Below, in pieces: positions 5,725-20,076 of a DNA stretch of 64,000 nt. The translations under genes were made by a program, and so were the position numbers. This DNA comes from Bacillota bacterium (GTDB lineage: Bacteria; Bacillota; Clostridia; Lachnospirales; Anaerotignaceae): contig JAETUG010000001.1 of the NCBI GenBank assembly GCA_021768705.1, positions 124,001 through 188,000 on the forward strand, written 5' to 3'. Each line of letters opens with the position of its first letter. The stretch's first letter is position 1. The notes beneath the pieces were generated by a model that made no database searches, was not told the origin of the DNA, and worked only from the letters and a program-made list of their open reading frames with translations.

Positions 5725-5975
5725 AAAAAAACCTCCGTCACACAAAGGGACGAAGGTTCGTGGTACCACCCAAATTCCTGCTATCACAGGCACTCTAATG
5801 CGTAACGTGCATGAAACGGACTTCCCTACTCTTATTTTCAGGAAACCGACTCCGATGGGAACTTCTGCAGCTTCTGATACGAAAAACCCTTACAGCTCAG
5901 GAAGCACTCCCGAAGGTTTTCTCTCTGGCGTAGTTTCACTGCATACTTTTCATCTTCACAGTCATTTTTCAATCA
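5725..5975 (-). promoter_or_regulatory. T-box riboswitch of pheST (tRNA-Phe)
   Basis: Read on the minus strand, Stem I carries an AGTA bulge paired across a specifier loop GAAG-TTC-C, so the specifier is TTC (Phe; plus positions 5859-5861). The T-box sequence GGGTGGTACCACG lies at 5771-5759, with TGGT predicting discriminator base A, as in tRNA-Phe. A terminator of AACCTTCGTC / GACGGAGGTT plus seven T follows at 5758-5723. Uncharged tRNA-Phe should favour the antiterminator and switch pheST on. The Stem I boundaries are approximate. Confidence 0.93.
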
Positions 5976-15062: not shown

Positions 15063-16553
15063 TTAAAGTTCCACAATTTTCCCTGCAATTTTCTGGCAGA
15101 ATACGGCATCATGCTCTACCAAAAGCAATGTGGGTCTATATTTTTGTAACAATTCTTCAATCTGTATTCTGGAAAAAACATCAATAAAATTCAAAGGCTC
15201 GTCCCAAATATACAGATGCGCTTCTTCACATAGACTGCGGGCAATCAAAACTTTTTTCTTCTGCCCATCACTGAAATCCTCCATCCGCTTATCGAATTGC
15301 TCCCGGGAAAAACCAAGTTTCCGCAGGATGGCTTTAAAAAGACTTTCATCAATACCATATTCTTCTGCATAGTCCCGCAGATTCCCCTTCAGACCATCGG
15401 TCTTCTGGGGCACATAAGAAATCTTCAGACCTGTTGCCTTGCGAAGTTCCCCCGTCATATCCACGGGTTCCCCATAAATCAGCTTCAGGATGGTGGATTT
15501 TCCGCAGCCGTTTTTTCCCCGCAGAGCCACCTGTTCCCCTACTTCGATCTCAAAGGTAACCCCTTCGCAGACGGTCTTTTCGCCATACCGCACAGCCACA
15601 TCCTTTAGATAGACCACAGGGGTCTGGCGGGCTTTCAAAGGAGATAGTTTCAAATCTTCGGTGGTATCGATATTCCGCAGCAGTTCGGATTTTTCTTCCC
15701 TAGCCGCTTCCTGTCTGCGTTCCATATTTTTTGCCCGCTGCATCATTTTTTCCGCCTTATGACCAATATAGCCCTTATCTACCTTCACGCCTGCCTCTTT
15801 CGGACGTCGTCTGCCTGCATTTTTTGTTTTTTCCACCTGTTCAGACCAGCGTGAGGTCTGCTTCGCTGCTTTTTCCAGCCGTTTGATATCCTTCCTCAGC
15901 TTCTCGTTTTCAGAAAATTCATAGGCATCCTGCCTGTTCTTGTTTTCCTTCCAAGAAGAGAAATTTCCCCGCTGCACTTCAATAGTATTGCGGTTGATGG
16001 CAAGGACATGGTCGATACATGCATCCAGCAGATTTCTGTCATGGGAAACCAAAATAAATCCCTTTTTCTGCTGCAGATATTTGCTGATGGCCTTTCTCCC
16101 TTCCAAGTCCAAATGGTTTGTGGGCTCATCAATGAGCAGAAAGGCATGTTCCTTCAAAAACAACGCCGCCAGCAAAGCCTTTACCTGTTCTCCATTGGAA
16201 AGTGTATCAAAGGGCCGCCAAAGGGCATCCTCTTCCATATCGATGCGAGATATTTCTCTGATGATTTCCCAATCCTCGCACAGAGGGCAAATTTCTCGCA
16301 GAATATCTATCGTGAGCCATTCCTTATGCTCCACTTCGTAGGGGAAATAGGCAAATTCCATATCCCCCGAGATCGTGCCGCTGTATTCATATTTGCCCAT
16401 CAGCAATTTCAGAAAAGTCGTTTTTCCTCTTCCGTTTCTGCCAATGAGCCCCAACTTCCAATCCGTATCCAAACGGAAGCTGACATTTTCAAAAATGTTG
16501 TCATAACTGCCTTCGTAAGCAAAGGTCAGATCTGTAACCTGAATATAAGACAT
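15063..16553 (-). CDS. ABC-F ribosomal protection protein, Lsa-like
   Basis: A 496-residue soluble protein with two ATP-binding cassettes and no membrane domain. ABC-F proteins of this type bind the ribosomal E site and dislodge lincosamides, streptogramin A or pleuromutilins. First cassette: Walker A GRNGRGKTT (38-46), signature LSNGEQ (118-123), DEPTNHLDL (142-150). A charged linker (about 195-300) forms the tip reaching toward the peptidyl-transferase centre. Second cassette: GKNGCGKST (346-354), FSDGQ (427-431), DEPLNFID (451-458). Start 16553 follows AAGGAGGTCACT. I judge it Lsa-like from overall sequence, so the drug spectrum is inferred. A leader with a small ORF and an attenuator-like hairpin lies upstream, as expected for drug-inducible control. 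Confidence 0.88.
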   Translation of the reverse strand: MSYIQVTDLTFAYEGSYDNIFENVSFRLDTDWKLGLIGRNGRGKTTFLKLLMGKYEYSGTISGDMEFAYFPYEVEHKEWLTIDILREICPLCEDWEIIREISRIDMEEDALWRPFDTLSNGEQVKALLAALFLKEHAFLLIDEPTNHLDLEGRKAISKYLQQKKGFILVSHDRNLLDACIDHVLAINRNTIEVQRGNFSSWKENKNRQDAYEFSENEKLRKDIKRLEKAAKQTSRWSEQVEKTKNAGRRRPKEAGVKVDKGYIGHKAEKMMQRAKNMERRQEAAREEKSELLRNIDTTEDLKLSPLKARQTPVVYLKDVAVRYGEKTVCEGVTFEIEVGEQVALRGKNGCGKSTILKLIYGEPVDMTGELRKATGLKISYVPQKTDGLKGNLRDYAEEYGIDESLFKAILRKLGFSREQFDKRMEDFSDGQKKKVLIARSLCEEAHLYIWDEPLNFIDVFSRIQIEELLQKYRPTLLLVEHDAVFCQKIAGKIVEL

Positions 16554-16570
16554 AGTGACCTCCTTGTTTT

Positions 16571-16620
16571 CATAAAATACAAAGCCACAGGAAAACAAAT
16601 TCCCATGGCTTTACACTCTC
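16571..16620 (-). promoter_or_regulatory. Attenuator hairpin before the ABC-F gene
   Basis: On the minus strand AAAGCCA (16612-16606) pairs with TGGCTTT (16587-16581), extended inward by TGGGAA/TTCCTG pairs, followed by GTATTTTAT. It ends about 18 bases before the Shine-Dalgarno sequence. Its 3' arm contains TTGTTTTCCTG (16598-16588), which is perfectly complementary to CAGGAAAACAA inside the upstream small ORF (16688-16678), an obvious antiterminator. TTGTTTTC can also pair with GAAAACAA immediately before the Shine-Dalgarno sequence. Confidence 0.65.
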
Positions 16621-16647
16621 ACGAAAACAGACAGAACCGTCTTCAAT

Positions 16648-16740
16648 TCATAATATGGACAAAGCTGTAAGATTTTCTTGTTTTCCTGCTGCAGGCATGA
16701 GAAAGAAACAAAGATAAAAACACTTTGTGTAGGGAATCAT
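16648..16740 (-). CDS. Putative leader peptide of the ABC-F gene
   Basis: A 30-codon ORF starting ATG 16740 and ending TGA 16648. The peptide begins MIPYTKC, continues with a hydrophobic CFYLCFFLMPAAGKQ core and ends SIL. Its ribosome binding site is weak (GGTGTGAAAAAGAA). Residues around GKQ are encoded by the bases that can pair with the terminator arm, so a ribosome stalled earlier in the ORF would leave the antiterminator free to form. This is the layout of ribosome-mediated attenuation known for several ABC-F and Erm genes. Translation is not proven. Confidence 0.55.
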   Translation of the reverse strand: MIPYTKCFYLCFFLMPAAGKQENLTALSIL

Positions 16741-16846
16741 TTCTTTTTCACACCGATAAAAATTAGCAAGAAAACTGAATCATCTTTTCAACTCCAATCC
16801 TTTTATTAAACAGTAAAACTATAGCATAAAAACCATTGATACGCAA

Positions 16847-17968
16847 TTATTCTGTCAAAAGTTCTTCCTTAAATTTTCCATTTTCATAGAATAATTGCCC
16901 ATCCGCATAGATTCTGCCTTCTTTGGTCATATCATTGATCATATCCCAATGGATGGCAGATTCATTTTTGCCTCCGGCTTCCTGAAAGGCTTCACCAATA
17001 GCCATATGCATGGAACCACCGATCTTTTCGTCAAACAGAATATTCTTTGTATGTCGCTGGATGCCATAGTTGGTGCCGATGGCAACCTCGCCAAAATAGC
17101 GGGAACCTGCGTCCGTATCAATATAAGAAAGCAGGGTATCCAGCATTTCTCCGTTTTTACAGGAAACATCCATGATGCGCCCTTTTTCTACTGTCAGGCG
17201 CACTTCATAAAATTCATTGCCATTCATAATGGAAGGATAAGAAAAGGTAATATAGCCATTGATACCATCCTCCACGGGAGAAGTGAAGATTTCACCATCA
17301 GGAAAGTTTTCATTGCCACAGCAGTTGATCCATTTTCTGCCTGCAATATTCACACGAATATCCGTATCCTTAGAAAGGATATGCAGTTCCTTTTTCCCAT
17401 CCAGATACTGTACCCATTTTTCCTGCCATGCCGCCATCTCTTCCCATTTTTTCACGGGGTCTGCTTCATTGAGGAAGCCTGCGGTATATACAAAATCCTC
17501 ATATTCCTCCAGACTCATGCCTGCATTTTGCGCATCGCCATTGGTAGGAAACTGGGTGCCGCACCAGCGCAGCTCTCCTGTCCCCATACGTTCGGAATAG
17601 GCTTTGCGATTTTCTCTGTTTGCCAGACGTTTTTGCTTCAGCCGTTCTCCGTCAATGGACTGCATCGTCTTTGTGTTTTCGCTGCCCCATGCGCTCAGCC
17701 ATACATCACTTCTGGCGCAGGCACCAAAACGGATATTTTCACGGGCATACTGTTCTTCCGTACCGTTTTTCAAAATCTCCGCATCCACATCGGGCATATC
17801 TACATAATAATCCACCAGCGCGCCCTGTTTCACCGCTGCCCTTGCCACTGCTTTGATAAAAGGCAAAGCGGCATCCTCTGCGGAAATGGCAACACGGTCA
17901 CCTTTTTTCACTTTTGTAGAGTAATTTACCAGCACATCAGCCAGTTTTTCCAATCTTTCATCTCTCAT
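16847..17968 (-). CDS. M29 family aminopeptidase
   Basis: A 373-residue cytoplasmic metallo-aminopeptidase of the AmpS/PepS/aminopeptidase T family, which removes N-terminal residues from short peptides. The start MRDERLEKLADVLVNYSTKV is typical. Metal-binding residues fall in the C-terminal half: Glu in FGEVAIGTNYGI, His in GIQRHTKN, and SMHMAIGEAF with NESAIHWDMI. Slightly short for the family but with all conserved blocks. GAGGAATGAAAC precedes ATG 17968. The 10-base gap after the cysteine hydrolase suggests one transcript. Confidence 0.92.
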   Translation of the reverse strand: MRDERLEKLADVLVNYSTKVKKGDRVAISAEDAALPFIKAVARAAVKQGALVDYYVDMPDVDAEILKNGTEEQYARENIRFGACARSDVWLSAWGSENTKTMQSIDGERLKQKRLANRENRKAYSERMGTGELRWCGTQFPTNGDAQNAGMSLEEYEDFVYTAGFLNEADPVKKWEEMAAWQEKWVQYLDGKKELHILSKDTDIRVNIAGRKWINCCGNENFPDGEIFTSPVEDGINGYITFSYPSIMNGNEFYEVRLTVEKGRIMDVSCKNGEMLDTLLSYIDTDAGSRYFGEVAIGTNYGIQRHTKNILFDEKIGGSMHMAIGEAFQEAGGKNESAIHWDMINDMTKEGRIYADGQLFYENGKFKEELLTE

Positions 17969-19840: not shown

Positions 19841-19854
19841 ATCTGTGAAAAACA

Positions 19855-20076
19855 ATGACAGGGAATAGTAAAAAAGACCCTTGCCCCCAGAAAATAGGCG
19901 GTCGATGCGAGCCTTGGCAAACCTTTTTGAACCTGCCCCTTGAGTTCCGCAAGGAAAATGCGGCGTAGTTCGGCGTTAACGATTCCGAGAGGACAGCTGC
20001 TGCTGTCAATAAGGGTGGCACCGCCGAATGACCTTGGTCCCTTTTCCGTTTTACGGAGGGAGCAGGGATTTTTTGT
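19855..20076 (+). promoter_or_regulatory. T-box riboswitch of proS
   Basis: Stem I carries the AGTA bulge (19867-19870) opposite a specifier loop starting GAA (19929-19931). Stem III is GACAGC / GCTGTC (about 19992-20007). The T-box sequence AGGGTGGCACCGC lies at 20012-20024 and a terminator with a T run at 20032-20076. Reading directly after GAA gives CCT (Pro), but alignment with the pheS leader in this window and with remembered B. subtilis glyQS gives CTG (Leu). The TGGC of the T-box predicts discriminator G, expected for neither. The riboswitch is clear; its tRNA partner is presumed tRNA-Pro from proS. Confidence 0.88.

Follow-up and report, generated by a model that had tools for sequence, protein, structure and literature searches.

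The Lsa-like ABC-F gene at 15063-16553 (minus strand) of the window, i.e. the whole 64,000-nucleotide stretch of DNA analysed here, is preceded by a leader for which a three-state ribosome-controlled transcription attenuator appears the best explanation (probability about 0.87). Three RNA strands, referred to as A, B and C, are predicted to form an anti-antiterminator (A:B), an antiterminator (B:C) and an intrinsic terminator. The evidence consists of the sequence elements of the leader, their conservation, their covariation, their spacing and a genome-wide link to ABC-F genes. Taken together these data strongly support a ribosome-controlled transcription attenuator before the Lsa-like gene, as the earlier note on this DNA had proposed; the comparisons give no such support to the other parts of that proposal, namely its leader ORF, its sensing peptide and an additional control of translation.

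The switch would work as follows. Without drug, the ribosome would complete a six-codon uORF and depart, or no ribosome would be present, and A would pair with B. B being occupied by this anti-antiterminator, the terminator (16612-16581) would form and transcription would end before the ABC-F gene. A lincosamide, a pleuromutilin or streptogramin A, all drugs of the peptidyl transferase centre, would stall the ribosome on the start codon or immediately after it, where it would cover A and free B. Free B could then pair with C, which comprises the loop and the 3' arm of the terminator, and RNA polymerase would read into the gene. What is sensed would be the presence of a ribosome over A, whose distance to the start codon is fixed, and not the peptide. 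Transcription start, ribosome stalling, drug induction and termination in vivo are the steps of this scheme that we infer.

Elements of the leader

The gene encodes a protein of 496 aa, assigned to the ABC-F ribosomal protection proteins of Lsa-like type by NCBIfam profile and similarity. Its score with the NCBIfam Lsa model (NF000167) is 739.3 bits, 11 short of the curated cut-off of 750; we therefore call the gene “Lsa-like”. The protein passes the general ABC-F ribosomal protection model (490.5 vs 380), matches Lsa(A) of known structure (7nhk) over its full length (E 2.7e-125) and is 61% identical over 496 aa to the plasmid protein Lsa(E), its closest named relative here. Lincosamides, pleuromutilins and streptogramin A form the spectrum expected for Lsa proteins.

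The minus strand was read directly from 16846 to 16554. A candidate promoter (16846-16818) was picked out by eye: TTGCGT (16846-16841), a spacer of 17 nt and the extended -10 TGCTATAGT (16826-16818). It has 8 of 12 matches, below the scan threshold; the extended -10 TGCTATA is also present in L002, the closest relative, whose gene is 87% identical to that of the window. Downstream lies a conserved uORF (16783-16763; ATGATTCAGTTTTCTTGCTAA) encoding MIQFSC, which reads with its Shine-Dalgarno (SD) sequence GGAGTTGAAAAG ATG ATT CAG TTT TCT TGC TAA. The SD core is GGAG (16795-16792), and GGAG or GAGG occupies the same place in nearly all related leaders, whose peptides are mostly M[IFYKR]xxSC.

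Strand A (16775-16765, GTTTTCTTGCT) begins at the third base of uORF codon 3, spans codons 4 to 6 and includes the T of the stop codon. About 75 nt further downstream, strand B (16690-16677) is complementary to it over 11 bp, one of them G-U; the part involved is AGCAGGAAAAC (16690-16680), and in the antiterminator B extends to GCAGGAAAACAAG (16689-16677). Between A and B, the minimum free energy (MFE) fold places an inner hairpin D:D' of the anti-antiterminator (16754-16693; 5' arm GGTGTGAAAAAGAAA, 3' arm TTTCTTTCTCATGCC). The intrinsic terminator hairpin (16612-16581, AAAGCCATGGGAA/TTCCTGTGGCTTT) has arms at 16612-16600 and 16593-16581 and 13 pairs, which agrees with the earlier description of it. 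Its loop and 3' arm contain strand C (16599-16587, TTTGTTTTCCTGT), which forms 13 bp with B. The U-rich tract that follows (GTATTTTA, 16580-16573) is weak in the window and stronger in most relatives. A TTGTTT, corresponding to the NusG-type pause motif TTNTTT, occurs near 16709; judged by eye, it is missing there in several relatives.

The predicted free energies are -28.1 kcal/mol for the A:B state (z -3.8), -23.5 kcal/mol for the terminator including its extended stem (z -6.9) and -34.6 kcal/mol for the B:C state (z -4.6). None of these three values was reached by 200 shuffles. A simple promoter and terminator scan of 16540-16900 gave no match; the terminator was probably missed because its stem runs into its own U tract. 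Searched against Rfam, the leader gave no known family. Elsewhere in the window, two T-box leaders (19846-20045, plus strand, and 5743-5968, minus strand) score well above the Rfam gathering score.

The uORF lies upstream of the interval covered by the earlier note, which had neither this frame nor the A:B pairing and took as leader ORF a 30-codon frame (16740-16648) whose peptide core CFYLCFFLMPAAGKQ would stall the ribosome. That frame is indeed open, rightly placed and contains strand B, and the 11-base complementarity reported between it and the terminator (CAGGAAAACAA/TTGTTTTCCTG) is exact. It is not supported as a gene, however: it has no SD (the upstream sequence is TCGGTGTGAAAAAGAA), its ATG is GCG in L002, and among the fetched leaders none was seen with a similar peptide. 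The DNA of the supposed core corresponds to the 3' arm of the inner hairpin and to strand B. A ribosome stalled on CFYLCFFLMPAAGKQ would thus cover B (16690-16680) and block the antiterminator, so that the stall would favour termination, the wrong direction for induction. We consider this reading very improbable.

Pairing and covariation of the three strands

No dinucleotide shuffle out of 100 is as good as the A:B:C set of the window, and in 31 of the 36 testable leaders the best set is matched by at most 1 shuffle in 100. We then aligned the three strands of 30 leaders. Pairing reaches 91% for A:B and 88% for B:C, with 14 and 41 cells, respectively, in which both sides have changed; 0 of 500 shuffles attain either result. 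The percentages are inflated by the choice of strand positions for maximal pairing, in some cases by hand, a choice that the shuffled-leader test above also includes. When the strands are slid against each other, pairing is 47.7-61% for A:B and 40.9-57.5% for B:C. The B/C registers were reset, partly by hand, for L010, L065, L066, L057, L070 and the L007 group. Across these related leaders both A:B and B:C have been maintained by compensatory changes.

RNAalifold applied to 20 uORF-to-B regions returned A:B alone. In those leaders that were folded, the MFE structure of the uORF-to-B region was the A:B stem, mostly around an inner hairpin. A covariance model was built on 20 uORF-to-B regions, thus without strand C. 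Among 28 leaders found with it, the downstream partner of B is better than 99% of shuffles in 16, and in most of the others the C motif is again present, within a hairpin followed by a T tract. B:C is weak in a few leaders (L068, L070, L085 and L099).

A further pairing of the earlier proposal concerns translation. An 8-base complementarity between TTGTTTTC and GAAAACAA (16571-16564, by the SD of the ABC-F gene) is exact, and GAAAACAA can also pair with GTTTTC at 16629-16624. Sequestration of this SD could be the main control; a layer of this type exists in the leaders of vmlR (PMC9226507) and cplR (PMC10201436). But the SD-hiding hairpin, possible in the window, is not kept in relatives: L002 has GCAAAAATAA at this place, so that the pairing is lost, and in relatives strand C lies at distances of ~38 to 175 nt from the start codon. 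For these two reasons SD control does not appear to be a conserved feature, and a translation attenuator is improbable as the main control in the window. L029 may be a true case, a translation-only variant: its uORF (MRVNSCR) lies 52 nt before the ABC-F start, there is no terminator, and the uORF strand TTCTTGCC, corresponding to A, has a potential pairing partner, GGCAAGG(GG), at the SD of the ABC-F gene.

Ribosome occupancy and the leader peptide

The end of A follows the first base of the start codon by 18 nt in 54 leaders, 19 nt in 6 and 21 nt in 4, while the length of the uORF varies (2, 3, 6, 7 or 8 codons). This nearly fixed spacing despite variable ORF length indicates that the signal is probably ribosome occupancy over A, not the peptide. 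In vmlR the distance between the AUG and the initiation toeprint is 16 nt (PMC9226507). With the same reach of ~16 nt, a ribosome halted on the start codon here would mask the greater part of A, which fits drugs that halt the ribosome at or just after initiation.

The same RNA switch could nevertheless use the nascent peptide as sensor, M-x-x-F-S-C giving the drug specificity. A precedent is the msrD leader (MsrDL), likewise a hexapeptide uORF acting by transcription attenuation before an ABC-F gene: on MYLIFM, a macrolide- and peptide-specific stall at the stop codon directly unwinds the terminator (PMC10314930). In the present family SC closes most of the peptides, and I, F or Y is frequent at position 2. 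The peptide as a whole is variable and not conserved, in contrast to what is expected of a stalling peptide of the MsrDL type, whereas the RNA strand is kept. In the MK*, MI*, MKL* and MRN* leaders an early stop leaves A behind the stop codon, where it is still matched by B. In L021 the TGC codon is changed to CGC, giving SRR, and B has GCGGG in place of GCAAG, matching the change. Since A is kept past early stops and B has changed together with A in L021, selection follows the RNA strand, and the SC codons follow from it. A peptide sensor is therefore unlikely, and we retain ribosome occupancy as the probable signal. Leaders of the MK* and MRN* types, beside those of the MxxFSC type, allow the contribution of the peptide to drug sensing to be told from that of the RNA, a distinction directly testable with reporters.

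Conservation of the SC codons could also evoke an attenuator responding to cysteine or serine starvation instead of drugs. Only single codons are concerned, they are missing in the MK*, MI* and MRN* leaders, and the downstream gene is one of ribosome protection; the probability of such a response is negligible.

Known attenuators and distribution across genomes

The closest known logic is that of vmlR of Bacillus subtilis, a pleuromutilin, lincosamide and streptogramin A resistance gene for which the signal is stalling at initiation (PMC9226507) and for which stalling on the uORF (MIN) was shown by experiment to prevent the anti-antiterminator (Takada et al. 2022, PMC9226507). The leader, uORF, anti-antiterminator, antiterminator and terminator of the two systems correspond one to one. 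In the window, the leader carries close to its 5' end a short uORF provided with an SD, and it has an anti-antiterminator that includes the uORF, an antiterminator exclusive with both the anti-antiterminator and the terminator, and an intrinsic terminator, with the weak U tract mentioned above, before the ABC-F gene. Disparities nevertheless appear: in the window the uORF codons themselves form the anti-antiterminator strand, they number six vs three, and there appears to be no conserved SD-sequestering hairpin. Judged from sequence, the leader family appears to be a new, widespread member of the attenuators of vmlR logic.

Other systems share fewer features. That of cplR in Clostridioides difficile (uORF MR[I/M]; Obana et al. 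2023, PMC10201436) also has a clostridial ABC-F gene, a very short uORF and a terminator/antiterminator switch, but the uORF and the ABC-F subfamily differ, and the cplR terminator holds the SD of the gene. lsa(A) of Enterococcus faecalis is an Lsa-family gene with a conserved short uORF whose consensus, MAGN, differs from that of the window (PMC10201436). Start-codon stalling on short uORFs by these drugs has also been seen for the Streptomyces ARE5 genes (PMC12421871). lsa(B) and an Lsa gene of a Priestia plasmid have different leaders. We found no paper on the Clostridia leader family, leaders encoding MINFSC included, in the open-access papers searched.

The upstream regions of 30 Lsa-like relatives were compared. 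In 22 of the 30, the window counted, there is a short frame, six to eight codons long and preceded by a strong SD; the leader of L003 has diverged (MYSFIR). In about nine of the 30 the available sequence contains no leader of this kind, indicating that the ABC-F gene can be expressed without it. They include L013 and L014, from the genus of the window: these Lsa-like genes have a short upstream region in which no attenuator was seen.

The uORF pattern was searched in 392 genomes of the order. It gave 26 sites, against 0 for the reversed control, and 25 of them are directly upstream of Lsa-like ABC-F genes; 15 sites were new, 14 of these before an Lsa-like gene. One site, L061, has no ABC-F gene behind it and no stop soon after A, and was rejected as a chance match. 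Two more sites, again before Lsa-like genes, came from 398 genomes sampled across the phylum. The covariance model matched 33 of 391 genomes of the class. Each of the 30 sites fetched precedes an ABC-F gene, 28 of them being neither the window nor its closest relative; the gene is Lsa-like in 29 cases. The remaining one, L092, belongs to another ABC-F subfamily; its nearest models are Msr, CplR and Vga, and it is 27% identical to the window protein. Its leader (1501-1597) has a uORF encoding MIIFSCK, A, B, C and the terminator, possibly the result of a transfer of the leader between ABC-F genes. One genome (G041) carries a second copy of the leader (L071, contig C1, 2046444), before an ABC-F gene broken by stops or a frameshift.

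The same complete leader precedes the hospital plasmid gene lsa(E), here on an Enterococcus faecium plasmid (NZ_CP023426.1; L105, 1120-1502). Its uORF reads GGAGGTGGAAGA ATG TAT AAC TTT TCT TGC TAA, B is GCAAGAAAG and the terminator contains ACTTTCTTGCGG. It differs from that of the window by its peptide (MYNFSC) and by the position of strand C, ~175 nt before the gene vs ~45 nt. This leader occurs in 111 plasmid records, 110 of them at at least 99% identity, mostly from Enterococcus but also from Listeria, Lysinibacillus and Staphylococcus. We found no paper on lsa(E) regulation among the open-access papers searched. At somewhat less than even odds, we suggest a single movable sensor leader family, present before Lsa-like genes throughout Clostridia, recruited by another ABC-F subfamily (L092) and brought by plasmid lsa(E) to Enterococcus and Listeria. 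Such a leader would sense a ribosome located at a set distance from the start codon, independently of the peptide, and make lsa(E) drug-inducible; it would be a common control point for lsa(E) resistance. The attenuator model in turn predicts how drugs would switch on many Lsa-like genes in gut Clostridia as well as mobile lsa(E), with its more than 100 plasmid records.

Ten MAGs from various gut Clostridia share another Lsa-like gene (L032-L040 and L042), which together with ~2.6 kb around it is ~99% identical among them, reflecting either a recent transfer or contamination between assemblies. These copies carry another leader and made up most of the matches of a genome-contig scan.
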